Of a DNA stretch of 64,000 nt, positions 25,209-51,713 are shown one piece after another (positions within the stretch are counted from its first letter, which is position 1; each line of letters opens with the position of its first letter). A model generated the notes under the pieces. That model was not told the DNA's origin, did no database searches, and saw only the letters and a program-made list of their open reading frames with translations. The stretch spans positions 683,501 through 747,500 of the forward strand of contig AP017647.1 in assembly GCA_003584625.1 (NCBI GenBank), given 5' to 3'. The position numbers and the translations under genes were made by a program. The stretch is from Methanothermobacter sp. MT-2 (GTDB lineage: Archaea; Methanobacteriota; Methanobacteria; Methanobacteriales; DSM-23052).

Positions 25209-25544
25209 TCTCCTTACACAACATATGCTTATTAAGACTGTTCTTGGAGTATTATAGCGTATAAATTTAATGCACTATCCCATGAGAAGATAATAATTAA
25301 ATCACGCGCTAATTTTTAGATAATATCATGGAAAAACCGGGCCAATACTATACAGTAACTCCTCCTATAATGGAAGATAACCTTTGGAGCCCTAAAAAGT
25401 AGCAATCCACTTCAAAGCAATTACAATAGTTAAGGATTCACCCTCCACTTCACCCATAAATATTAAATCCAAACTTAAAAATTATAATTGGATTTGGATG
25501 AAACAATAGGGTATAATCAGCTGAAAATTAGGAGGTGTAAAGAA
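25209..25544. other. Intergenic region
   Basis: No convincing gene. The last part contains AT-rich sequence suitable as promoter for the following membrane protein, and a perfect GGAGGTG at about 25531-25537. Confidence 0.5.
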
Positions 25545-26047
25545 CTGGACGGAAAATACCTATCGATAATATTAACAGTTATTATAACACCCATGATCGG
25601 TTATTTCACCTACAGCGAATATAGAATGCTACAAATGGATAAATTGTCACAATCTTATGAAATTAATGGTGAAAAAGATGAAATAATTGATAAACCGACA
25701 AACTCGCAAGCAATGGAGAGCTAGACAAGGCCATTGCCAACGCAGATAAAATAATAGAAAAGCAAAAAGAGATGATTTCATTCGAAGAAAAAGCATATAA
25801 GTATGCTGATGGACCATACGAAGAACTGATAGGATCATATTTAAAAGCGGATCGTCTATACTTAGAATCATATAAATCATGGAAGAGTGGACTAGAATAT
25901 ATGAAAAAGGGTGATTATCCCCTCGCAGCTCAAGCCCTAGAAAAAGAAGAAGAATTATCAACAAAAGGAGCAATAATCTATAATGAAATCCATAACTTCC
26001 TAATAAAACATCCAGAAATCAAAGAACATATAAACAAATACTGGTAA
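25545..26047 (+). pseudogene. Small membrane-anchored coiled-coil protein with one frameshift
   Basis: Two overlapping frames join into one protein of about 165 residues: an N-terminal membrane helix (YLSIILTVIITPMIGYFTY), then a charged helical region, then ELDKAIANADKIIEKQKEM and a C-terminal helical domain ending in HPEIKEHINKYW. The shift lies near 25690-25700 (one base missing). The best ribosome binding site, GGAGGTG, is 7 nt before a CTG codon at 25545, so a CTG start is possible; an in-frame ATG lies farther up at 25488 without a good site. No family recognised. Confidence 0.6.
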
Positions 26048-26175
26048 CCCCCCTCAAAAAAAGAGAATAATTTCAAATTTATGAAATAGTATTAGGCTTC
26101 TTAGAATTTCTTCCCGCACCAAATCATATACCCGCCCTTGGAAAAAATAAAAATAAAATTTATGGTAGTTCCACT

Positions 26176-26511
26176 ATGCTAATAAAAAAGAGAAGAATAT
26201 TATCAAGCAAAGTAGTTAAAACTCTCCCCGATAGAGTTGAAAGGATAATCTTTGGGATCATACAATAAAAAGAAGCCCGATCTTTTCACAAACTTGAATA
26301 TCCTCCTAAAGATTTCCTATAAAGGCTAAAGGGAGATCTATTCTCAAATATCTTTACCAGGATATGGATATCCTATTCTACACCCCTGAAGAATTTAAAA
26401 GAAAAGATTCTCTAAAACGAAGGACAAACTCGTATTATAAGAGATGCGATCAAAGAAGGAAAAAGATGGTTTGAACAAGCAAAAGTAATCTTCTTTTTTT
26501 CATGTTTGTAA
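26176..26511 (+). pseudogene. Remnant of an MNT-type nucleotidyltransferase
   Basis: Pieces in several frames match the small nucleotidyltransferase family that acts as antitoxin or tRNA/AMP transferase: KTLPDRVERIIFG (where intact members have LFGSxARG), DMDILFYTPEEFKRK (the second Asp motif) and IIRDAIKEGKRWFEQA (the usual C-terminal end). The central part is deleted and there are stops, so it cannot make an active enzyme. It is similar in kind to the MntA remnant at 33058. Confidence 0.6.
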
Positions 26512-28059
26512 AATTATAAGCGGGATTCTTATGTATGCGCTGCGACGCCTTTCTACATTTTTGAAGGCCTCCCCCTCTTAGCATTTCCCAATTACACTTA
26601 AAGATAAGAAAATAATATAGATGATTAGTAGTAGGGCTTTTTGGCGTGTTATACCCCACTTTTTAGAAATATTATAAAAATAAAAATCAGTAATATTAGA
26701 AAGATTGAAACGATCTGAAAATCTGTTAGATCCATGATTAAGATTGGTCTCATAACTGCAGCTAGTGTTAAATTTCTGATAAAATGAAACTATTCCCTGA
26801 AAAAGTGCCATGCATTCACGGACCCTCATATGGGATTTTATCCTCGCCTGATCCACAATATTATTGGACCATCACAGTTTATTATGATTATAGGAGACGG
26901 CAATTGCAACAGCAAGTAGAAACACCTCAACTAGATAAGGGGAAATGTTCATCATAGGCCCCAATAACAAGAAAGGGTCATTACAAGTGGGGGGTAACAT
27001 TTTCCTTTGCTGTCCTCCAAGATACTCTGAATGGGGGGTAGTGCTATTACACTTTCCCTTGAATTTATAATGATAGTAGCCATGGCAGCCATAGGATGCA
27101 GAAGACTATCCAAGAGGTTGGGGTATCTGCAAGTTTGGTAGGGGGTGATAGGCCAGTTACATGAGAAACCAAGACATTATATTTCTGCAAAATATTCAAG
27201 TATTTGGTTGAATCCATAAAATTCAAATGAGAAAATTAGGTTAAAAAGGAGGGTGTTTGAAAGTATGGATGAATCCATAAAAGCCAAAAACAAAAGACAA
27301 CCTAAACTAAAGATTATCGCGACTTTCTGATCAAAATACAAGAATATTATAATAAGTCCATGGATACTAAATCCTAGACTAATAAAAATTTCGCCCTGAA
27401 AAATGGACCTGACAACGGAAAAGAAAATTATAATCATTGCAAAGGGAAATCGAAAGACGCCTTGCAAAGGCTACAGAGGACTCCACCATCGCCATGTCAT
27501 CTTCCAATTAAAAAATTATAGATTATCCACCCACATAAAAAGGTTTCCTACCCTCATAGCCTATTTCCTCTCAAATACAAATTGGACTTTTATAAGGTGG
27601 AAATATTCACATCGAACCTTTAACTCTCCCAAACCCTGAAAAATGTTAAAATTAAATTAATCCCCCTATATAAAGAAGAGGGTGACACTAACAAGATGCC
27701 TTATTAGAAATTGGCACAAATCTTGTTTTGCCTGTGAAACACTAAGATGTTCCCAGGATAATCTTTCTGCAACTAGCTGTTATACAACACTTGCATCCTA
27801 ATTATACAGTGAAAAAGAAAGATGATGATATGAAAATCCCTGGAAAACTCCCAGAAATTTTGATGGTAAATATAAGGTGAAACTAATTTATTTCGACTCC
27901 AATTATAGATAAGGGGACTCTAAAACGGGAAAGACTTAACAAAAACGATAAAATTTTAGCTGGTAAGCCCAAACTTAAAATCTGTCATTGGATTAAAAAA
28001 GCACAACATGATCCAATAAACATGTGCCCCATGAATAAAAAAATAGTAGAAAAAAGATT
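26512..28059. other. Gene-poor region with possible decayed membrane genes
   Basis: No gene can be supported with confidence. A minus-strand frame at 27177-27467 would encode 96 hydrophobic residues with three helices and could be a small membrane protein, but has no clear ribosome site. Around 27035-27130 the plus strand has a permease-like stretch (ITLSLEFIMIVAMAAIG) that breaks into stops. The composition looks like degraded coding sequence. Confidence 0.4.
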
Positions 28060-30729
28060 TTAGATTGTGACATAGTTTGGCAGTTTGTGGTTTGTTCCGT
28101 AGAATGCTATGATCTTAGTGTACATGTAGACTAGGCGTTGGAATGGTATTCTGCCAAGGCTTGTCATAGCATAATTTGGCGCCCTACCATAACGGTCAAT
28201 GGATGATAGAATGTTCGCTGCAACTTGCAGATAAGCCGATTTGTAAAGCCTGCCATGCCTGTAACTTCCACTTGGTGAAGTTGGAGCTCCAACAGCCCTT
28301 GGATTAATAGCTTTTAAGTTGCCCAAGTTTATGTTGACTGTTGCCCTTGTAAGCAAGTAAAGCAATTGAGCCATACTATACCTTTGCCCAGCAATCGTCA
28401 CAAAACTTGGAAGCCTACCATAACGCTCATAATACCCTCTAACAGTACCTGCAGCCGAAACAAGATCGCCTAAACTAACACCAGCCGAAGCCACACTCAC
28501 CTTCACCGGCACCAAACCATCTATCGCCACATTGTAAGCTCCAGCTGATGCCAACCTGTATATAAACGTTACTGTCTTGGCTTCTCCAGCCCCTACTGTC
28601 ACAAGCTGACTGTCAACAACCACACCATTTATCTTGAGCTCTGCTGTGTAGTCTCCTGCAACATCACCAGTATTTGTTAGCTTGCAGGATACTGTCACAC
28701 TTAATGGTGCAACGCCAGAAGCTGGCGTCACAGAAAGGTTGCCTGCTGTTATATTGGCTGGTTTCAGCACGGTGATTGTAGTGGGTGACATGTCATTTAT
28801 TGTTATGTTGTGGGTTCCGGGTTCGTTTAGAATGTAATTGAATGTTACCGTCCTTCTTTCCCAGGCTTTGAGGGTGACTGTCTGATTTGCTACTGGTCTT
28901 CCATCTATGTAGAGTGTTATTGTGTAATTTCCTTCTGCGTCTCCATTGTTTATTAATGTGCATGATACATTTACTGGTACTGGAGCTGGCCTGTTCATCC
29001 AACTTACAACAATCTCTTTCATGATTATATTGGCTGGTTTTATCACTGTCACTGTCATTGGCGCTAGGTTGTCTATTGTCACATTATAGATTCCTGGTTC
29101 GTTGAAGGTGTAAGTGAATGTTATTGTATTTTTCTCCCAGGCATCTAATGTGATCGTCTGGTTTGCTGCTGGCCTTCCATTTATGTAGAGTGTTGCTGTA
29201 TATTCTCCGGGGAGGTTACCATCGTTAGCTATGAGAGCATTGATTATAACATTTAATGGTGCTTTTCCTTCTTTGGGTTCGACTGTTAGATTTGAGATTC
29301 TGGGTTTGAATTCCTGCACTATTGTAATGTTTTCATAGAGTCTTGGGATTTCCAATGGGATGCATTTTATAGCTGACATATAATAGAGTTCTGCCAAGTC
29401 TATCTTCCCGTCTTTGTTAGCATCTGTCATCGGATCTGAAAACGCGTCTATGATGCTCTTTCCTAATCCTGACCCGTGTCCTCCAAATGCGACTGATTCC
29501 ACTCCTGTTGCTGTTATTATTGTAGTGTTTGTGTCGAAAAAGCTTGTGGTGTCGTTATAGTCTTTGATGGCCACTCCTCCACTATGACAACTATCAAGTA
29601 TTAATATTTTGTTATGACAGCATATGCTCCTGACCAATTCTTCCAATTCATAATTGTAGATATCGTTAAATGGGGAGGCTAGGAATGAGTATAAGGGGCC
29701 ATTAGTTTCAGTTCCTCCATGGGCGTTGATGTAGATTGTGCAAGTGTCTTCTGGTTTAATGATTTGTGCAAGAACATTTAATGCCTGGAATACTTGCTCT
29801 CTTGTAGGTTCTATCAATTTTTGGATGTTGTAGCCTAGATTGTATAAAAAAACTGTCATTTCTTCAACACCCTCTGGATTTATACCAACGCCTTTAATCA
29901 ATAGAGCATACTTTTCTGCGCCGTTGTTTAAGTAGCGGTCGTGTAATCCTTGGATGATTGGAGAATCAGTTATGGTTGTGGAATATTCTATGTAGATTGG
30001 GGACTCTTTTGCATTTGTGATAATGTTCCCTATGACTTTGTCTGCTTTTGACCCGAAGATTGTTAACCCTCTTCTCCCACCTGTGATGGTATTGTTGCTT
30101 ATTGTGTTATTGTAGGAGTAGGCTACTGTTATACCATCCCAGAGCGAATTTTGGATGCTATTGTCCTTTATTATATTGTTTGTGGAGTTGCCGAGGAATA
30201 TTCCTGAATATCTGCTATTTGTAAAGCGATTTCCTTGTATGGTGTTTGATGAGCCGTTGATTATGGCGATTCCGCAGTGTGTGCAATTATCAAATGTATT
30301 ATTGAGGATTTTGTGTCCTCCACCCCCTTCGATGATAACACCAAACCTGAGGCCACTGAATTGATTGTTAATGATCGTCACATTTTTGCGCCAGCTAATG
30401 CGGATGCCGTCGCACTCTTCTCCTACAAATCTGAAACCCTCAACATACACGTTGTTATTCCTTATGTACATTATGTTCAAGTATGGAGCGTTACTTATGG
30501 TTACAGAACCGTTTGCTTTAAGTACTAGGGGCTTGTACACGTCTATGGTTTCATTGTATGTTCCTTGGTCGACTATAATCCAATGTCCTGGTCCTGTGCT
30601 GGGATCGTCTATTGCATCCTGGATACTGGCGAATGTTTTAGTCGTGTTCTGGTTGATTACAGTTGCAGAAGCCGAATTTAATGCGAAGACCATAAAAAAT
30701 AATAGAAGCACAAACTTTAAACCCCTCAT
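28060..30729 (-). CDS. Secreted, cell-wall-binding clan CD (caspase/legumain-like) protease with beta-helix domain
   Basis: An 889-residue exported protein. The signal peptide is residues 1-22 (cleavage after SASA). Residues about 25-260 contain parallel beta-helix repeats (NNTISNNTITGG). Residues about 270-460 form a clan CD cysteine peptidase: YALLIKGVG, catalytic His in YINAHGG (about 338) and catalytic Cys in LILDSCHSGG (about 383). Three CARDB-like beta-sandwich repeats of about 90 residues follow (each with VxxQTVTL-type and AW(E)(K/R)(N/R)T(I/V)TF strands). The end has two pseudomurein-binding repeats (YYERYGRLPSFVTI; IDRYGRAPNYAM). ATG is preceded by GGGGGA and an AT-rich TATA-like box at about 30757-30770. 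Confidence 0.88.
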   Translation of the reverse strand: MRGLKFVLLLFFMVFALNSASATVINQNTTKTFASIQDAIDDPSTGPGHWIIVDQGTYNETIDVYKPLVLKANGSVTISNAPYLNIMYIRNNNVYVEGFRFVGEECDGIRISWRKNVTIINNQFSGLRFGVIIEGGGGHKILNNTFDNCTHCGIAIINGSSNTIQGNRFTNSRYSGIFLGNSTNNIIKDNSIQNSLWDGITVAYSYNNTISNNTITGGRRGLTIFGSKADKVIGNIITNAKESPIYIEYSTTITDSPIIQGLHDRYLNNGAEKYALLIKGVGINPEGVEEMTVFLYNLGYNIQKLIEPTREQVFQALNVLAQIIKPEDTCTIYINAHGGTETNGPLYSFLASPFNDIYNYELEELVRSICCHNKILILDSCHSGGVAIKDYNDTTSFFDTNTTIITATGVESVAFGGHGSGLGKSIIDAFSDPMTDANKDGKIDLAELYYMSAIKCIPLEIPRLYENITIVQEFKPRISNLTVEPKEGKAPLNVIINALIANDGNLPGEYTATLYINGRPAANQTITLDAWEKNTITFTYTFNEPGIYNVTIDNLAPMTVTVIKPANIIMKEIVVSWMNRPAPVPVNVSCTLINNGDAEGNYTITLYIDGRPVANQTVTLKAWERRTVTFNYILNEPGTHNITINDMSPTTITVLKPANITAGNLSVTPASGVAPLSVTVSCKLTNTGDVAGDYTAELKINGVVVDSQLVTVGAGEAKTVTFIYRLASAGAYNVAIDGLVPVKVSVASAGVSLGDLVSAAGTVRGYYERYGRLPSFVTIAGQRYSMAQLLYLLTRATVNINLGNLKAINPRAVGAPTSPSGSYRHGRLYKSAYLQVAANILSSIDRYGRAPNYAMTSLGRIPFQRLVYMYTKIIAFYGTNHKLPNYVTI

Positions 30730-31305
30730 ATCCAGTCCCCCGTTTTTAATCTTATCTCTTATAATTTAAATGCTTTTTGAAAAATTTATCAGACATTCAT
30801 GAAAATAGTTTGAAAGGACAAAGTATTTTGTAAATGTCCATACTCGAGGAGCCATGTACAAGAATCCCCCGAGAAGATCAAGAAAGGCTATAAATTATGT
30901 AAAAAGACTTAAAAAACCCGTTGCAGACTTAAAGAAGGGAGTAATTTTTCTCAAAATTTAAATACATATCCCTATCACCGGAAGACGAATCATGAATATT
31001 GTATGCCTATGGATGTTCACAGCACCTTAATGCAAAAATATGGGGGGCCGTTTCCTTACCAGTGCAAATCTGCAACAATTCCAAGAATAAAGGATTGTGC
31101 CTAAAACTAATCTCCAAAAAATTTATATCTCACCGATAATTCTCTTTTACAACTTCACCACCCTCTCCCTTTAATCTAATAATCGTTTATAAGTCTCAAC
31201 TTTAATTATCCCATTCTTCTATATTTTGAATTTCCAAGGACAAAATTTTATTGCCGCAAACTATTTAAACAGAAAATGCTATTCCTTTTGATAGGAGGCT
31301 TTAAT
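30730..31305. other. Intergenic region
   Basis: It contains the promoter of the protease gene on the left and, at about 31260-31270, a TATA-like CTATTTAAAC before the FMN-protein gene on the right. A 35-codon frame at 30853-30960 encodes a basic peptide (MYKNPPRRSRKAINYVKRL...) but nothing else supports it as a gene. Confidence 0.45.
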
Positions 31306-31728: not shown

Positions 31729-32320
31729 GCCGCTACCATCTCCGAGCAGCTTCTAGTGAACATTTATAAGTCAAAACGGGAATCATGCTAATTCTCTACC
31801 TCCTTCTTTCAAAATCATAGATCCCGCCAATATAGACTCCAAGAGCCTCTCCTCTTTCAATCCCATTTTAGTCTGATTTAGGGCAAAATTTTTTTGTTTT
31901 ATCTTTTTTCTTGTCATGTTTTTTGTGTCGGGCGATCTCTGAATTTATAAGGATGGACGACCCCGGCCAGAAAGGCCAATAATACTAGAACAAAAGATGC
32001 GGAATACAAGGAATAGAAGTCCAGAGTGTTCCAAAAAAAGACATTCGATAACATAACACCAAATTTTAGGTGGAAAAAACAACACCCTACAAAAAACAAT
32101 AAAAAAATCTAAACACGCCCTCTATCAAGTCAACTAGAACGAGCATGCCTCCCATACGACATACTAGCATGTGGTCTGCTGTGAGAAATAACTTTTTCGT
32201 TGATCACGCCGTCCAAACTTAAATTATGCAAGTTAGAGCATGTCTTGAGGTTTTGTCAGGCGAAAAAAGTTTATAGGATTTTCTAAGGAAACCCTTATCA
32301 TCCTGTAATGGGGGGAGAGA
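31729..32320. other. Gene-poor region, possible tiny membrane protein
   Basis: On the minus strand, 32054-31914 could encode 46 residues with one membrane helix (SFVLVLLAFLAGVV); GGTG lies upstream of its ATG. Nothing else confirms it. The remaining sequence shows no coding pattern. Confidence 0.35.
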
Positions 32321-32494
32321 TTATTGGAGTATGTCCATTTGGACGCAGTAAAGTTCTTCTTCTACACTTCTCTTTTTTCTCCTCTTCTTGGAGGATTTTT
32401 TTATTTTGATTGGCTCCACTTCAGGGATACTACCGTCCAATGGTATGAACTTCACAACTTCTACTATCTCCTTTTTTCTCTTCTTCTCGGGCAA
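32321..32494 (-). CDS. Small Lys/Arg-rich protein, paralogue 1
   Basis: A 57-residue basic protein starting at TTG 32494, with GGTGAT 5 nt upstream. Key segments are PEKKRKKEIVEVVKF, EVEPIKIKKSSKKRRKKR and the acidic end SVEEELYC. It is a clear paralogue of the protein at 35990-36160 on the same strand. Aligned codons differ mostly at synonymous third positions (for example GAA/GAG, GTA/GTG, TAC/TAT), which shows selection on protein. No known family; a nucleic-acid-binding role is suggested only by charge. Confidence 0.7.
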   Translation of the reverse strand: MPEKKRKKEIVEVVKFIPLDGSIPEVEPIKIKKSSKKRRKKRSVEEELYCVQMDILQ

Positions 32495-33057
32495 AGGGGA
32501 TCACCCTTTTTCTATCAACAATACTTTTTTTGTCTCTTCAAGCATATACTTATTCATTCCCTTATGGAGGTGAGCTGGCCCCTCCTTTGTGTCTAGCCTT
32601 TAAACAATGATTAGGTTTCCTATACTGGGGGATGGAAAGAGTCTGTCAAGGTGGTGGTTTAATGGTTATGGAGGCTAAACTTGCCCTAGAAGATGGGTGG
32701 ATACGGCAAGCGGTTTGAGAAGGGCAACCTTTTATTATGTAGATATATGTATGGCTTGCAAGGACTGAGAGAACCGGTAGGAGAGCGGAGATGATGTGGG
32801 GGGCTGGAACGGTCCCTTGAACGCCCGTGGAGAAAGAACATTTTACTCTTTCACGATCCACTTACAGGCGAGTTTGAAGGGGAGGTTCTTTCGATGAAGT
32901 GAGGGAACACCATCTATCAAGGGCAAGCTTAATTCACTTTTTTATTGGAATAAACCTCTTTGGCCATTTTCAATATTTCACTAAATTGTATAAGGTTACT
33001 TCAGTTTTTTGGTTAATCTTCGAGATTTGATCAAGAAATTTGTGTGGGGGGGAGGCG
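32495..33057. other. Region without supported gene
   Basis: G-rich segments at 32640-32900 look structured but match no RNA family I recognise. A ten-codon stretch at about 32661 (MVMEAKLALEDG) recalls the N-terminus of a carbamoyl-phosphate synthetase small subunit but then stops. Confidence 0.35.
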
Positions 33058-33475
33058 ATGGAAACTAAAATCCTTGAAAAACTTGCAAAATTTTTTTGAA
33101 ATAGAAGGGCAAGGTAAGGTTAGCTTATCTTTTCGGTTCCACTTCTAGAGGAGATAAAGGGAAATTGGGCGACTTTGACCTGGGAGTTCTACTAGATGAA
33201 TCCCTTAAGAAATATGATAGGTTCCAATTTCAATTGAAATTGTTGAATGATCTTGTATCCATACTTAAAACAGATAAAGTTGATTTAGTTATCATGAATG
33301 ATGCACCACTATCCTTAAATTATAATATTATAAAGGGGATGGAATACTCTTGAAATATGATAAAGAAAGGATAAGATTCGAGAAAAATGTCATGTCAGAA
33401 TATTTGGATAGAAATTACTTTGATAGGCATGCAAGAATAGCCATCAAGAGGATAGCCCGCGAAGGATTAACATGA
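33058..33475 (+). pseudogene. Broken MntA-type nucleotidyltransferase antitoxin
   Basis: After correcting three single-base shifts the frame encodes about 138 residues: METKILEKLAKFFEIEG, the catalytic GSxxRG motif as FGSTSRGDKG, the DFDLGVLLD acidic motif, VDLVIMNDAPL and the C-terminal FEKNVMSEYLD. MntA transfers AMP to HepT and so silences it. Shifts lie in the T7 run near 33095, near 33138 and near 33335. GGAGGCG precedes the ATG. It overlaps the HepT remnant by 4 bp, the usual operon form. Confidence 0.75.
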
Positions 33476-33865
33476 AAAAATGAAATCTCATCAAAATTAG
33501 AAAGATTAAGAGAATACTTGAAGATATTAAGGGATTACCAGTCCCCATAATTTAGATGATTTGAAAAAGGATATTACTTTAAGAGGGGCTGTAGAAAGAT
33601 ACCTAGAAGTTTCCCTGGAATCCCTGCCTTGATATTGGTGAAATGATCATCTCAAAGGAGAAAACCAGAAACCCACAGGGGAAGTAATAGAAATACTCGG
33701 AAAAATAGGAATCCTACCAACGGATTTCGCTGACAAATTCGCCCCAGCCGCAAGTTCCAGGAACATACTAGTCCATATGTAGAAATAGACATAGAAAAAG
33801 TCTATGAATACCTACAAAACAATCTAGAAAATATAAACAAATTCGCAAAATATCTTGAAAAATGA
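33472..33865 (+). pseudogene. Broken HepT-type toxin (DUF86, HEPN)
   Basis: Pieces read as a HEPN ribonuclease of about 130 residues: SSKLERLREYLKILRDY, LRGAVERYLEVSLESL(L)DIGEMII, ILPTDFADKFAPAASSRNILVH followed, after a frameshift, by YVEIDIEKVYEYLQNNLENI. The R-x4-H-x-Y active site falls exactly on the frameshift. At least four lesions (near 33545, 33625, 33690 and 33779) mean the toxin is dead. It directly follows the MntA remnant. Confidence 0.75.
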
Positions 33866-34317
33866 CAAGTTCAACCTTCGTCGCCTAAGGGCAACCCTAT
33901 TTGCCCCCCATCAAATCCATGTTCTAGGCTTTCCCTTGATAACAGCTTTCAGTACAATTCCCATCTATAGAGAACTGATAATATTGCCATTGACTGCGAT
34001 ATCAATGATTGATCCATATACTGTTAAGGAAATGTCCTGTTCTTTTTTTCATCCCTTCGAACTGCTATGCCATTCACATAAGCCTCCATACCCTAATATT
34101 TTCCCCAGCAATGTTTATGGCGCATTTATCTCATGTGAATATCAATTTACTGGTTTTAACATGTTCAAAAAAAATTTCACAAAATTCGCTATATAATCAG
34201 CGCAAAAAATAGGCTTAAAACATTCCATCTTCTTGACAACCTGTACTATCGCAACTCGCCCCCATACATTCGCCATAATTTCGCTTTTTTCCTACTAATA
34301 AGAAAAAAATAGCTATC
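33866..34317. other. Region with weak decayed coding sequence
   Basis: On the minus strand around 34030-33900 there are short protein-like stretches (LTVYGSIIDIAVNGNIISSL, then MGIVLKAVIKGKPRTW) separated by a stop. They suggest a degraded small gene; no family can be named. The rest is AT-rich. Confidence 0.3.
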
Positions 34318-34719
34318 TTAAAACCCATAGATAAACCAAAAATCTAACCTTACACCTACTAAATAATGATGAAACGATATTCTAGACTCATCTACTGAAA
34401 ATAACTTTTCAAGCTGTTCTATCAATCTCAAAAAACTTTGAAGTTCAGATAAAGAAATACTTTTGGGAATAAGCGCAAGAACAGACAAAAACATCTCCCC
34501 ATCCAATCCCTTCCTTAACCAATAAATATGCTCAAAAGAACCATCAAAATAAACCATGGACACGAGCTCCGCCCTATAATCTTGAAAATCCTTATACCGA
34601 CATTCACCCTCAAAAAAGAACGGACAGGTAAGACACATCAACTCCACAACCGACTCCACCCCTAAATGAGTGAAAAACAACCTCCTCCAGGCCTTAAACC
34701 GGCCTAAATCATCTGACAA
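34318..34719 (-). CDS. Hypothetical protein with a three-Cys cluster
   Basis: A 133-residue protein starting with TTG 34719; AGGTGG lies 6 nt upstream, which supports a real gene. Near residues 28-40 it has MCLTCPFFFEGECRY, where three cysteines could hold a metal. The C-terminal half is helical (SLSELQSFLRLIEQLEKLF). No family recognised. It lies in the gene-poor accessory stretch, downstream of a HEAT-repeat fragment. Confidence 0.55.
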   Translation of the reverse strand: MSDDLGRFKAWRRLFFTHLGVESVVELMCLTCPFFFEGECRYKDFQDYRAELVSMVYFDGSFEHIYWLRKGLDGEMFLSVLALIPKSISLSELQSFLRLIEQLEKLFSVDESRISFHHYLVGVRLDFWFIYGF

Positions 34720-34830
34720 TTATAACCACCTTCTCCTTTTTTTATCAATAATAAAAACAATGAGCTAATGCTAAGCAAAGCAATAATTTCGGAAACGATA
34801 AACTAAGTCATCCTACTCATTTTCCAGACT

Positions 34831-35064
34831 TCACCTTATCTTCCCCACCAATCCAACCCACTTTCCATAATCTAAACCAAAATTCCGACTTTTAATCTCC
34901 CAAAGGACTCTGACTGCTGCCAAGCGGACCCAATTGTCTTCATCCCTTAACGCCTCAATAGAGGGTTCAACTGAATGAGGGTCTTTTACTTCACCAAGGG
35001 CAATGGGCCGCTCCCCCCGAACATGCCCAGCCTTCATTCCCTTGTGCTTTAATAAACCAGTCAA
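34831..35064 (-). pseudogene. HEAT-repeat protein fragment
   Basis: About 77 codons containing one and a half HEAT/PBS-lyase-type repeats: ALGEVKDPHSVEPSIEALRDEDNWVRLAAVRVLWEI. Intact members carry many such repeats as scaffolds. The N-terminal part (LLKHKGMKAGHVRGERP) looks like a damaged repeat, so this is probably a remnant. Confidence 0.55.
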
Positions 35065-35989
35065 CTAATCCCATTTTTCGTCTCCTCATGTTATTATGGT
35101 TTTTGCTATTATTGGCCTTAAACTTATTGTAGATGTTCAGATTGCAAAAGATTTAGTTGCCTTGATTTTTATAGATGTGATTGTGGCGAGGGTGCATGTT
35201 TCTTTTTGTCTTTCTGCGATTTTGATTTGATAAAGTTAAAATCCTTCGCAAAGGGTTTGCATGTCCCCCTTGAAGTGTGTTGATTTTGGCTTTTGTAAAA
35301 GTCCCCCTTTTTTTGTGATTATGCCTAAGTTGATCCTCCCACTATTTTTTTGATGGTGTAGGTTTTTGTGGTTGGGAGGGTTTTGATGGATGTTTATTTT
35401 CGTTATATCCGGGAAAATTTATCATTCCCATCTTTCTATAAGAAACAGGGTATTTAAATATTCAAAATCAGTTTAATATGAGGGTATCTCACTTAGTTTA
35501 AGAATAATAGCACGCCCAAAAAGCATCTGCTGAATGTAAGACATTTTTATTTTTTACCTAAGGAGCAGTTCAAAGGTGTCAAACCCTCCAAAAAGATGTG
35601 ACTGGGATAAAAATGATATTTGATAATTTTAGGCGAAGAAGGAGATGACAAGGAGAGAGAGGTAAACTTTTACTTTCTGTTTTATCCCAATCCTAATTTT
35701 GACAGCCAAATTTTCGATATTCTTTGCTCTTTTTTTGTGATCTGGGACTTACAAGCAATGTAAGTTAAAATAGGTTATAAACGCGCAAAAAAAATGTACA
35801 TGTATACTCATATAGTAGATCCATTAATTGGAGTCATAAGTTATATCATTTGGGAGTTTAAAGGAGATTATCAAGCTTTTCTCCTCCCATGAGTTTCAAA
35901 TAATATTTTTTTTTGGTAGGATGAATTATGGTCTTTTTGATGGAGGGATTTGCACAGATTTTTTGGAGGGTGTGATAATCGGGGATATT
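35065..35989. other. Long AT-rich region without gene
   Basis: About 0.9 kb of T-rich and A-rich sequence with scattered stops in all frames. I see no RNA gene, repeat array or promoter that I can support. Confidence 0.45.
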
Positions 35990-36160
35990 TCATTCTAAAT
36001 CCATCAGGAAGCAATAAAGTTCTTCCTCCACACTTCTTTTTCTTCTTTTTGCCTTTTTGGGAGATTTTTTTATCTTTACGGGTTCAACCTCGGGGAAACC
36101 ACCATACTCGAAGTTGAACTTTAAAATTTCCACAGTCTCCCTTTTCCTCTTCTTGGTCAA
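35990..36160 (-). CDS. Small Lys/Arg-rich protein, paralogue 2
   Basis: A 56-residue protein from TTG 36160, with GGGTGG about 6 nt upstream. Segments are TKKRKRETVEILKF, FPEVEPVKIKKSPKKAKRRKR and SVEEELYCFLMDLE. It aligns along its full length with the protein at 32321-32494, keeping EVEPxKIKKSxKK and KRSVEEELYC. A TATA-like GTATAAAAA lies upstream. It is divergent from the glycerophosphodiesterase gene. Function unknown; the charge pattern (basic body, acidic end) may suit binding to nucleic acid or a protein partner. Confidence 0.7.
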   Translation of the reverse strand: MTKKRKRETVEILKFNFEYGGFPEVEPVKIKKSPKKAKRRKRSVEEELYCFLMDLE

Positions 36161-36401
36161 AGCCAACCACCCTACATGTTTTATCTATTTTTCTTTTTTT
36201 ATACATGTTTCTCCCCAAGCCTTTCCTAAAACTAAAAAAGCTTATAATGGCTGACAATCAAATGGGAAGCTTTTATGAATGTAATCAATAAATAGAATCG
36301 TGCAGTAAAATTAAAGTTACCTACCTAAAAGATTTTTTTTATCTTCATGTATATGGGATTAGAATATAAAGGATGTCTAGAATTTTATTGGGTGGAATGT
36401 T

Positions 36402-37060
36402 ATGGAGGTTATAGCCCATAGAGGAGCATCTTATTTTGAACCTGAAAATACTTTAAGGTCTTTTAGAAGGGCTGTGGAGATGGGAGCTGACAGAGTCGAA
36501 GTAGATGTTCGGCTCAGCAAAGACAATAAACTTGTCGTAATCCACGATCCCAGGGTGGATAGGACAACAAACGGCACAGGCAGAATAAAGGACATGACAC
36601 TCCAAGAACTTAAAAGTTTAGATGCTGGGAAAGGAGAGAAAATACCAACACTACAAGAAGTCATAGACGCCCTGAAAGACACAAAACTAGTAATAGAGAT
36701 GAAAATTCCCGGAATCGAAGAAAAACTCTCCGAGAAAACAGATTAAAAAATGTGCTGATAACATCATTCTACCATGGCAGCCTCAAAAAAATAAAAACTC
36801 TAAATGAGAACATAGAAACCGGAGCAATATTCTCATGCCAACCCATAAAACCAGAAAAATTAGCATTAGATGCACGTGCAGATGCAATATTCCCCAAGCA
36901 CAAATTCGTAAACCAGAAAATGATAGAAAAAGTCCATGAACATAAAATAAAAATATACCCATGGACAATAGACAACCCAAAAACAGCAAAAAAACTAATA
37001 AAACTAGGAGCAGACGGCATCGTAACAAACAAACTAATAGGCCCTAAACTGCACTATTAA
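36402..37060 (+). pseudogene. Glycerophosphodiester phosphodiesterase with one frameshift
   Basis: Two frames join into a GDPD enzyme of about 219 residues. The first has the catalytic HRGASYFEPENTLRSF and EVDVRLSKDNKLVVIHDP motifs (His, Glu, Asp metal ligands). The second has VLITSFYHGSL, the VHEHKIKIYPWTIDNP strand and LGADGIVTNK. Adding one A to the A4 run near 36741 restores a continuous frame (ENRLKNVLIT). It hydrolyses glycerophosphodiesters to glycerol phosphate. ATG is preceded by GGGTGGA. It may be a recent pseudogene or a base-call error. Confidence 0.85.
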
Positions 37061-47830: not shown

Positions 47831-47964
47831 ATATGAGGATTTGGGGGGATTGTTTTATTTGTAATGTTGCATGATCATGTTCTCCCTTCATATTTTTCGC
47901 CCCTAAAAGAGATAGTAATCTTTTTATACTATAATGTATTATCATATTTTTGTGGTGGTTTGTT

Positions 47965-50505
47965 ATGAGGAGGTTATTGTTTCTTCTGGCAATCCTCTCT
48001 TGTTTCTGTCTTTTGGGCAGTTCTTCAGCTGTGAGTTTATCCTATGATGAGATTTGTGACGTTTCAAAGCTGATCGGAAACTACACTGCACAAAATGGGA
48101 AAATACCATCACAGGTTGTGATTAACGGTAAGAATGTGTCGGCAGACGACTACCTCTACGCCTCATCCACAACCATCATAAACCTTGATCAGGGTAGGAG
48201 AGTTGGCTTGTCATTCAATAGTATGGCCTCCCCGCCCAGTCCAAGTGGAACAGGAACAGGAACACTCCAAAAAGCAGGATACCTGCAGGTGGCAAAGAAC
48301 GTTAAGGCTTTCATGGAATCCTATGGGAGGTCGCCGAATTATGCCAGCACAGCCATTGGACAAATCCGCCCAGAAAGCCTAATATATGCCAATGCAAGGA
48401 TAATAAACTTCTACAACAGCACAGGAAGACTACCAAACCATGTAACAGTAGAATATGTTACAGGTAAGGCCGGAACCCTGACAAGGCGAAGGGCAGACTA
48501 CACCTACACAATACAAGGCTATAATGTCCAATTCCAGGATAAAAGTACAGGGACAATACAATACTACAAATGGGACTTCGGAGACCAAAGCACAAGCACC
48601 CAGAAGAATCCAGTACACGCCTACAAACCAGGAACCTACAAAGCAACCCTAACAGTCCAAGGCTATGGCATAACAGACACGAAGACTATGACATTGGAGG
48701 TTATGCTTGCAACGGTCCATGTTAATTCCACGGCAACATCCTCTGGGAAGCCTCTAAATTTAACATTTAAAATTCCGCTCAATGACACGGTTAAATGGAT
48801 TAGTATAGGGGCTATAGCTTCGGGCCTATTCAATGAAACAATATTCCTTGTGGAGGATGGCACAGCATACAAACTAGCCGAGGTCACTAACCCATTCTAC
48901 CAGGCTAACAGCCAGAGCCAAAGAGAAATAGTCTGGCAAGTCATAGCTGGCCTGAACAGACTCATAGAAATTTACACAAAGCTCGGAGCAGAACCTCAAG
49001 TGAATGAATATCTCAACAACTTCAATTTAACCCAGGCAGAAAAGACATTCATACTCACAAACTATAACAAGTGCATAGACCCTTTACAGGTCAGTGTGGA
49101 GTATCCCGGCGAGGAAAGCGTGACAATAGCCAATATAACATTCCCAGGGAACCGATCAACAAGGACGCTCCTACTACTCTACACAAACGGCTACTACATA
49201 CACCCGCCAGGAGAAACAGGACCCAATATCATAATAAACGACACTCTCATCTGGGAGGCTAGCAACTACGACGCCATCATAACCTACACCCTCGCCACAG
49301 GGAAGATAACAAACCAGACATTACAAAAGTGGCTAAACAGGACATACGAGCCCGGACCATTAAAGGCAGCCCACGGAACATTCCTAACAGGCCTTGAAGT
49401 AATATACCTCCACGATCTCATCGCAGAAGAAGCAGCCACGCGCTATAATGTAACATGGACCAGGACCATGCCAGTGATGGTCTCAGCAGGAGACCACAGC
49501 CCAGGGACATGGATAAGCCTCGAATGCAACCACAACATGGCCGTGAAAGCAGAAGGCACACCCGAAAACATAAAAGCATTCAATTATGCGAGAACATCAG
49601 CTATAAATCCAATAGAATACTATGTGATGGAGGCCCTCTTCCCAGGATCAGACCCCACAAGCGCGCCCACAACAGGAATAGGCCTAACACTCCTCAACGG
49701 CGGGTCACTAAACATTCTCGAAAGCGGGAATTACACGCTTATCAGTGACGGGCAGGGAAGATACATCATAATAGACCATGCAACAGGGATAGTAAGGGAC
49801 ATGATCTATGCTTTCATGGGAGCATACTGCTACTACCACCAGCAAACAGAACTAGCCAAAAAACTTGGGAATGAAATTTTGAATGGGAGTGGTTGGTGGA
49901 AATTTATTGGTGTTGCTGGTGTTTCAACAGCCGAGGCTGCTGTGCTTGAACTGGGTGTGCTTTCAGCCCCAGAAACCCTTGGTTTGAGTTTGGCTGTTAC
50001 CCTGGCCACATATATTATCATGGAGCATCCTGAATGGCTACCATACATCAAAGACGCCGCAATAATGACACTACTACTAACACCAGGTGGTCTGCCAACA
50101 TTCATCACCTACACATTACTAACAGGAGACACAGAACCAATACAAAACTATCTTGAAATACTATCAAGACAGTCAGACGGATGGACCCGTAGAATGGTAA
50201 ATGAGTATAGAGAAGCCGTAGATACTCTAAGGGCGGTTAGCAGTGGTAGTGTTGGTGGCGATCCCGACGATATAGAAAGGGCTATAAATAATTTAGGTAA
50301 ATTCATGAGGGATGAATGGGAGCTGTTCAAGGAGGCTTTAAAGGATGGGGATGTTGTGGGCGCCATAAAACATGGAGGCACTATAATAGGCACCGGAATG
50401 GGCGTTGTGGCCCTGTTAACATATGAGAATCGCGAGGCGATAGAGGCATGCATACTAGGATTCAAAAACTACCTGGAAAAGAAGTTGAGAGAGGCTGGAG
50501 CATGA
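47965..50505 (+). CDS. Cell-wall-bound surface protein with pseudomurein-binding repeats, PKD domain and variable C-terminal tip
   Basis: An 846-residue exported protein. The signal peptide is RRLLFLLAILSCFCLLGSSSA; pseudomurein-binding repeats follow (IGNYTAQNGKIPSQVVI; FMESYGRSPNYAST and FYNSTGRLPNHVTV), then a PKD domain (YYKWDFGDQSTSTQKNPVHAY), a large unassigned region with many N-x-S/T sites, and near residues 600-630 the ISDGQGRYIIIDHATG / AYCYYHQQTE segment reused in partial copies downstream. The tip has two hydrophobic stretches (VSTAEAAVLELGVLSAPETL; LAVTLATYIIMEHPEWLPYI) and a charged helical end. ATG 47965 has GGTGG upstream and a TATA box near 47920. It overlaps the TPR gene by ATGA. 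Confidence 0.88.
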   Translation: MRRLLFLLAILSCFCLLGSSSAVSLSYDEICDVSKLIGNYTAQNGKIPSQVVINGKNVSADDYLYASSTTIINLDQGRRVGLSFNSMASPPSPSGTGTGTLQKAGYLQVAKNVKAFMESYGRSPNYASTAIGQIRPESLIYANARIINFYNSTGRLPNHVTVEYVTGKAGTLTRRRADYTYTIQGYNVQFQDKSTGTIQYYKWDFGDQSTSTQKNPVHAYKPGTYKATLTVQGYGITDTKTMTLEVMLATVHVNSTATSSGKPLNLTFKIPLNDTVKWISIGAIASGLFNETIFLVEDGTAYKLAEVTNPFYQANSQSQREIVWQVIAGLNRLIEIYTKLGAEPQVNEYLNNFNLTQAEKTFILTNYNKCIDPLQVSVEYPGEESVTIANITFPGNRSTRTLLLLYTNGYYIHPPGETGPNIIINDTLIWEASNYDAIITYTLATGKITNQTLQKWLNRTYEPGPLKAAHGTFLTGLEVIYLHDLIAEEAATRYNVTWTRTMPVMVSAGDHSPGTWISLECNHNMAVKAEGTPENIKAFNYARTSAINPIEYYVMEALFPGSDPTSAPTTGIGLTLLNGGSLNILESGNYTLISDGQGRYIIIDHATGIVRDMIYAFMGAYCYYHQQTELAKKLGNEILNGSGWWKFIGVAGVSTAEAAVLELGVLSAPETLGLSLAVTLATYIIMEHPEWLPYIKDAAIMTLLLTPGGLPTFITYTLLTGDTEPIQNYLEILSRQSDGWTRRMVNEYREAVDTLRAVSSGSVGGDPDDIERAINNLGKFMRDEWELFKEALKDGDVVGAIKHGGTIIGTGMGVVALLTYENREAIEACILGFKNYLEKKLREAGA

Positions 50506-51713
50506 ATCCCCTTAAGAAGATAAAGGATTGGATAGCCAGGGGAAAGGCTGGATGGCACCTCAGCGGGGGCCGATCAAGCCTAAAACAGGGAAAATACAAA
50601 GAAGCTCTTAAAGAATTCAGGAAAGCCCTCAAGGCGAGTCCAAACGACCCGGAAATCTTGCACTATAATGCAATGACACTACTAAAACTCAAAAGACCAG
50701 AGAAAGCCTTAAAATGTTATGAAAAAATCCTCAAAAACAATCCAAAACTAGCAGAAGCATGGAACAACAAAGGAGTAGTCCTTAAAGAACTTAAGAGATA
50801 TGATGAGGCATTGGAATGCTATGAAAGGGCACTACAAATAGATCCACAAGACGATGGAACATGGAACAACAAAGGAGCGCTCCTTGACACAATCGGTAAA
50901 CCTGAAAAAGCAATAGAATGCTATGAAAAAGCCTTAGAAATAAACCAAAAAAATGCAAAAGCATGGTATAATAAAGGTAACGGATTACGCAGTCTCGGAA
51001 AATATGAGGAGGCATTGGAATGCTATGAAAAAGCATTACAGATAAACGCAGAATTCGTAGAGGCATGGTACAACAAAGCACTAATTTTTGAAGAACTTAA
51101 GAGATATGATGAGGCATTGGAATGCTATGGAAGGGCACTACAAATAGATCCACAAGACGATGGAACATGGAACAACAAAGGAGCGCTCCTTGACACAATC
51201 GGTAAACCTGAAAAAGCAATAGAATGCTATGAAAAAGCCTTAGAAATAAACCAAAAAAATGCAAAAGCATGGAACAACAAAGGAGTAGTCCTTGAAGAAC
51301 TTAAGAGATATGATGAGGCATTGGAATGCTATGAAAAAGCCTTAGAAATAAACCTAGAAAACGACGAAACATGGGCTAACAAGGGAGTACTCCTCAGGAA
51401 ACTTGGAAAATATGAGGAGGCGCTGGAATGTTTTGAAAAAGCCCTTGAAATAAACCCAGAATTCGCCGATGCATGGGAATGGAAAGGTATAATCCTGGAA
51501 GACCTCAAAAAACCAGAGGAAGCCCTGAAATGCTACGAGAAAGCCCTCAAACTAAACCCCCAAGACAAAACACTATGGTACATGCAAGGAAAAACACTAC
51601 AAAAACTTGGAAAACACCAAAAAGCCAAAAAATCCTACAAAAAAGCCCTGAAAATAGACCCAGAATACAAAAAAGCCAAAAAAGCCCTGAAAGAACTCCA
51701 AATGAAAGGCTAA
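50502..51713 (+). CDS. TPR-repeat protein coupled to the surface protein
   Basis: A 403-residue cytosolic protein: a short basic N-terminus (NPLKKIKDWIARGKAGWHL) and about eleven 34-residue TPR units with consensus AWNNKGVVLKELKRYDEALECYEKALEI. No signal peptide is seen. Start ATG 50502 overlaps the surface protein stop (ATGA), so translation is coupled. TPRs bind proteins; a role as partner or neutraliser of the surface protein tip is an inference from the coupling and from the fact that the partial copy at 52.65 kb duplicates tip end plus TPR together. Confidence 0.88.
   Translation: MNPLKKIKDWIARGKAGWHLSGGRSSLKQGKYKEALKEFRKALKASPNDPEILHYNAMTLLKLKRPEKALKCYEKILKNNPKLAEAWNNKGVVLKELKRYDEALECYERALQIDPQDDGTWNNKGALLDTIGKPEKAIECYEKALEINQKNAKAWYNKGNGLRSLGKYEEALECYEKALQINAEFVEAWYNKALIFEELKRYDEALECYGRALQIDPQDDGTWNNKGALLDTIGKPEKAIECYEKALEINQKNAKAWNNKGVVLEELKRYDEALECYEKALEINLENDETWANKGVLLRKLGKYEEALECFEKALEINPEFADAWEWKGIILEDLKKPEEALKCYEKALKLNPQDKTLWYMQGKTLQKLGKHQKAKKSYKKALKIDPEYKKAKKALKELQMKG
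50786..51269. repeat. Internal 306-bp-spaced direct repeat in the TPR gene
   Basis: The roughly 178-bp segment from about 50786 recurs nearly identically from about 51092, 306 bp away, i.e. exactly three TPR units of 102 bp. A similar 306-bp spacing is present in the second copy (about 53056 and 53362). This shows recent expansion by unequal recombination. Confidence 0.85.

Follow-up and report, generated by a model that had tools for sequence, protein, structure and literature searches.

Gene and predicted protein

The window, the whole 64,000-nucleotide stretch that was analysed, carries on its minus strand a coding sequence whose bounds are exactly 28060..30729. It starts with ATG, contains no internal stops, and encodes an 889-aa predicted secreted protein with pseudomurein-binding repeats (PMBR) and a C14-like peptidase domain. 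Upstream of the ATG, on the same strand, are a G-rich, ribosome-binding-like stretch, GGGGGA (30736-30741), and, about 40 nt from the start codon, a TATA-like box, TTTAAATTA (30762..30770); both are named for consensus resemblance only.

All features of the protein are given on the minus strand. Residues 1-22 (30664..30729) form a predicted Sec signal peptide, read directly as MRGLK, FVLLLFFMVFAL and ASA|T, with the predicted cut after ASA. It is followed by a right-handed parallel beta-helix (residues ~30-255; 29965..30642; Pfam Beta_helix/NosD and TIGR03804) and a clan CD, C14-like peptidase domain (residues ~270-462; 29344..29922), the latter assigned by family, profile and model matches. 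Three CARDB domains (residues ~471-740; 28510..29319; Pfam) then lead to a pseudomurein-binding domain of three PMBR (residues ~745-889; 28063..28497; Pfam). In the whole-protein Pfam search, the beta-helix scored 3.5e-28, the PMBR 7e-20 in three stretches, and CARDB 7.8e-16 in three stretches. The initial annotation had proposed this very order, from signal peptide to PMBR, without naming the strand, and the reading frame and Pfam bear it out. The protein thus has every feature of an adhesin-like PMBR protein, namely a signal peptide, a beta-helix, a repeat stalk and PMBR.

Three motifs are required for pseudomurein binding by the PMB domain of MTH719 (PMC3124540). Since the protein combines a signal peptide with that number of PMBR, we infer that it is exported and wall-bound; the extracellular position on the pseudomurein wall assigned earlier holds as a prediction from these two features. 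We scanned ten further PMBR proteins of the same genome (L072-L081). Transglutaminase heads were present on four, and other heads included a C5-epimerase C-terminal, an aspartoacylase-like and a biotin-ligase-N-like domain. Given this variety, PMBR looks like a general, interchangeable wall tether and the peptidase like one more enzyme on it. Knowing that one tether serves many different enzymes helps in interpreting and engineering the surfaces of methanogens. The window also holds a second PMBR protein (47950-50505, 851 aa) with three PMBR near its N-terminus and a PKD domain, which adjoins an 11-repeat TPR protein (50448-51713).

Catalytic dyad, fold and EF-hand loop

Alignments and motifs place the catalytic residues at His337 (codon 29719..29721), within INAHGG (residues 334-339), and Cys381 (codon 29587..29589), within LDSCHSGG (residues 378-385). 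They lie in HG and D[AS]C contexts and are invariant in both alignments of relatives. The generic paired pattern HG...D[ASTM]C.[SA]G arose in 1 of 20,000 shuffles of the protein, and the His-Cys dyad that had been proposed from the two motifs is upheld. Asp379 (codon 29593-29595), at the L4 position of the S1 pocket, sits two residues before Cys381 and is kept, as are the glycines around the dyad.

Peptidase_C14 (PF00656) matched the whole protein at 29.8 bits (6.2e-7) and the isolated domain at 33.8 bits, both passing the Pfam curated cut-off of 21.4 bits. A three-sequence profile, built from the domain and two methanogen relatives, matched only metacaspases, MALT1 and one bacterial C14-like protein in the PDB, with values of 2e-10 to 3e-6 for the metacaspases and MALT1. 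The AlphaFold2 model of the domain, made from nine sequences, was of moderate confidence (mean pLDDT 59, pTM 0.62) and weakest at the beta1-alpha1 loop and the C-terminal end. Its top Foldseek matches were MALT1, the Candida glabrata metacaspase and Yca1 (E 2.7e-5 to 3.5e-4, probability 1.00), indicating a caspase-haemoglobinase fold. The query TM-scores of the MALT1 and metacaspase matches were only ~0.4-0.6, which leaves the assignment to this fold sound and the detailed geometry unreliable. A structure without a clan CD fold had been named at the outset as what would refute the proposal, and the domain model agrees with such a fold. The full-length single-sequence model (mean pLDDT 44.5) was too poor to use.

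The domain also contains a canonical 12-residue EF-hand loop, DANKDGKIDLAE (residues 436-447; 29389..29424), which fits the consensus perfectly; the consensus was matched in 3 of 20,000 shuffles of the protein. The loop is conserved in archaeal and bacterial relatives (L035, L033 and the bacterial L036). Its canonical form and this conservation suggest that the domain binds calcium.

Rarity of the domain combination

PF00656 was scanned against 152 genomes of the phylum, and matches were found in five: this one, G151, G148, G129 and G140. G151, a 1.24 Mb genome outside the order, encodes a secreted C14 and CARDB protein of 521 aa (L035:1300-2865). The C14 protein of G148 has 281 aa and, by eye, one N-terminal hydrophobic segment. 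In G129, a Methanobacteriales genome estimated to be 8% contaminated, a 1988-aa protein (L088:1280-7246) has C14 fused to what looks from its sequence like a UvrD-like helicase, with no evident signal peptide. The G140 match is false, as it lies inside a P-type ATPase reading frame. Besides the present protein, clear predicted membrane-exported C14 proteins occur in two of the 152 genomes, both without PMBR, and none of the other four PF00656 proteins, as far as read, is a C14 and PMBR fusion. The combination is therefore found only here among the 152 related genomes, in keeping with its earlier description as unusual, and each part is of a known kind. The same 152 genomes hold a single match to C25, the gingipain family, in a 791-aa open frame (L086; G053:C354:3022-4170).

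Wider scans gave distant matches at most. Among genome contigs, the full protein had no relative, and all that the three-sequence domain alignment retrieved were distant C14 proteins from bacteria. Viral scans returned distant C14 proteins or nothing, the plasmid scan four distant caspase/C13 annotations, and the phage scan one weak, unannotated match. In published work, metacaspases were found in 5 of 114 archaeal genomes surveyed (PMC3501461), and a survey of adhesin-like proteins in two gut methanogens listed papain-family and transglutaminase domains and no caspase domains (PMC11532034).

Mosaic origin and genomic setting

The genome consists of one 1.52-Mb contig and belongs to a four-genome group that forms its own family within the order, a placement that fits the Methanothermobacter tenebrarum lineage, which has been described as a separate family (PMC13135261). 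The last 250 residues, in the CARDB/PMBR tail, share 74-87% identity with other PMBR adhesin-like proteins of the genus. At the DNA level, the gene shares 87% identity over 836 bases with a gene of G002 in which there is no C14 match. A paralogue in the same genome (L062:1318-3927, 869 aa) consists of beta-helix, stalk and PMBR, with no peptidase. The peptidase domain is absent from all three other genomes of the genus; conservation therefore offers no proof of a selected activity. In G001, the gene is absent and the conserved flanking blocks are only ~5.5 kb apart, compared with 12 kb here. On these comparisons, the best reading is that the gene encodes an adhesin-like protein formed by domain shuffling and that this part of the chromosome is variable.

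Around the gene, the window has long stretches in which hardly any genes can be recognised (25210-28060 and 31730-36400). Parts of these match G001 in inverted orientation, which points to rearrangement of the region between species. Two small basic paralogous ORFs of 57 and 58 aa (32321-32494 and 35990-36166, minus strand) lie in the gene-poor stretch; they share VEP[IV]KIKK...KRSVEEELYC and have no Pfam match. A glycerophosphodiester phosphodiesterase gene (36402-37060) is split into two frames of 114 and 102 aa by an apparent frameshift, and the matching place in G001 has a single 253-aa ORF (L059:8899-9660). A 26-nt inverted repeat around the peptidase gene was judged to be due to chance, with an exact core of 12 nt and several such pairs expected in 13 kb. 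PADLOC gave no defence-family match.

Proposed role and alternatives

We propose that a C14 (orthocaspase-like) domain was recombined between the head and stalk of a beta-helix, CARDB and PMBR adhesin. The protein would be exported by Sec and held on the pseudomurein by its three PMBR, with the CARDB units serving as a stalk and the beta-helix presumably binding a ligand on a surface or a glycan. The domain with the His337/Cys381 dyad may depend on calcium through its EF-hand loop. It would cut proteins in reach: further surface proteins, in trans, or the linkers of its own chain, which would release the head. That this adhesin-like protein carries a recombined, working C14 protease cleaving nearby proteins or itself has, in our judgement, an even chance of being right. 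The most likely role would be that of a wall-bound, possibly calcium-dependent protease which would trim surface proteins or clip its own head. Should the protein be active, a pseudomurein archaeon would have a caspase homologue anchored to its wall, and the function of extracellular prokaryotic caspase homologues could be tested there in a genetically simple way.

In the alignment, the beta1-alpha1 loop is ~8-9 residues shorter than in other members, among them the L035 relative (35% identity). Where these have the Asp of the ND[VA] motif, which we take from the HMMER alignment to MALT1 to be the alpha1 position of the S1 pocket, our protein has Gly287, within this shortened and poorly modelled loop. 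Of the acidic S1 pocket of C14B enzymes with basic P1 preference, Asp379 in L4 is thus kept and the alpha1 Asp is, by alignment, replaced by glycine in the poorly modelled loop. The alpha1 residues Asp95 of TbMCA2 and Asp365 of MALT1 are part of the S1 pocket (PMC4357240). Given the loop deletion and the loss of this Asp, weak or lost peptidase activity is possible. The domain could then be a catalytically dead caspase fold that serves the adhesin only as a structural or binding spacer, in the manner of the pseudo-orthocaspases. Its 33.8 bits for C14, weaker than the 75-94 of its relatives, and its occurrence in one species only would fit such a spacer. However, His337, Cys381, the Asp two before the Cys and the surrounding glycines are all kept, and in the pseudo-orthocaspases known so far it is the dyad that is replaced, by Tyr/Ser (PMC6426788). 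We consider a dead fold unlikely, though well worth keeping in mind.

The proposed working protease could also act mainly on itself. Autoprocessing is common among clan CD enzymes, and the domain, with its EF-hand loop, lies where the beta-helix head joins the wall-bound stalk; it might cut its own linker and shed the head on Ca2+ or another cue. This self-cleaving switch names neither a cleavage site nor a cue, however, and the L035 relative lacks a beta-helix head, which means that the two proteins do not have shedding in common; we find the switch rather improbable. A broader version, in which a calcium-gated surface caspase homologue clips its own or its neighbours' adhesin heads as a regulated shedding system that arose by PMBR domain shuffling, is more speculative still.

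A legumain-type (C13) protease or transamidase/ligase is very improbable: Peptidase_C13 (PF01650) is present in the scores, and legumain and GPI transamidase are in the Foldseek list at lower ranks, but C13 reached 19.0 bits for the whole protein and 22.6 bits for the isolated domain against its cut-off of 22.8, C14 is clearly better, DSCHSG is a metacaspase motif, and the PDB profile matches are the C14-type proteins named above. The initial label, caspase/legumain-like, is better restricted to C14, metacaspase/paracaspase-like, with its legumain half dropped.

A wall-lytic or cell-death enzyme (autolysin, fratricide) is likewise hardly credible, and the role in cell lysis suggested earlier is poorly supported. 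The usual target of clan CD enzymes is alpha-peptide bonds. In pseudomurein, in contrast, the bonds cut are Ala-epsilon-Lys isopeptide bonds, and the enzymes that cut them, PeiW/PeiP, belong to another family (PMC4592898); this makes lysis of the wall by this protein unlikely. The 889-aa protein has no match to the C71 peptidase domain in Pfam or NCBIfam. In favour of a lytic role are the wall-binding domain and the proposal that extracellular prokaryotic caspase homologues, some of which have peptidoglycan-binding domains, act at the cell surface or in fratricide (PMC3501461).

Comparison with known systems

The closest counterparts in overall build are the adhesin-like proteins of the Methanobacteriales, such as the paralogue L062:1318-3927, which have in common with our protein a signal peptide, a right-handed beta-helix, a repeat stalk and three C-terminal PMBR. 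The last ~250 residues of the two are 78% identical, but the paralogue lacks the peptidase domain. The G151 protein shares the signal peptide, the C14 domain (35% identity over the core), the EF-hand loop and CARDB after it; at 521 aa, it has neither beta-helix nor PMBR and, unlike our protein, a canonical S1 loop with the ND motif. PeiW and PeiP, the pseudomurein endoisopeptidases (C71 and PMBR), likewise fuse a cysteine peptidase to PMBR, but the peptidase is of another family and targets an isopeptide bond, and the PMBR are at the opposite end. With the prokaryotic caspase homologues (MEROPS C14B, orthocaspases/metacaspases), the protein shares the C14 match, the DSCHSG dyad and the clan CD model; it differs from them in its short beta1-alpha1 loop, in the missing alpha1 S1 Asp, and in having the domain embedded between a beta-helix and CARDB/PMBR.
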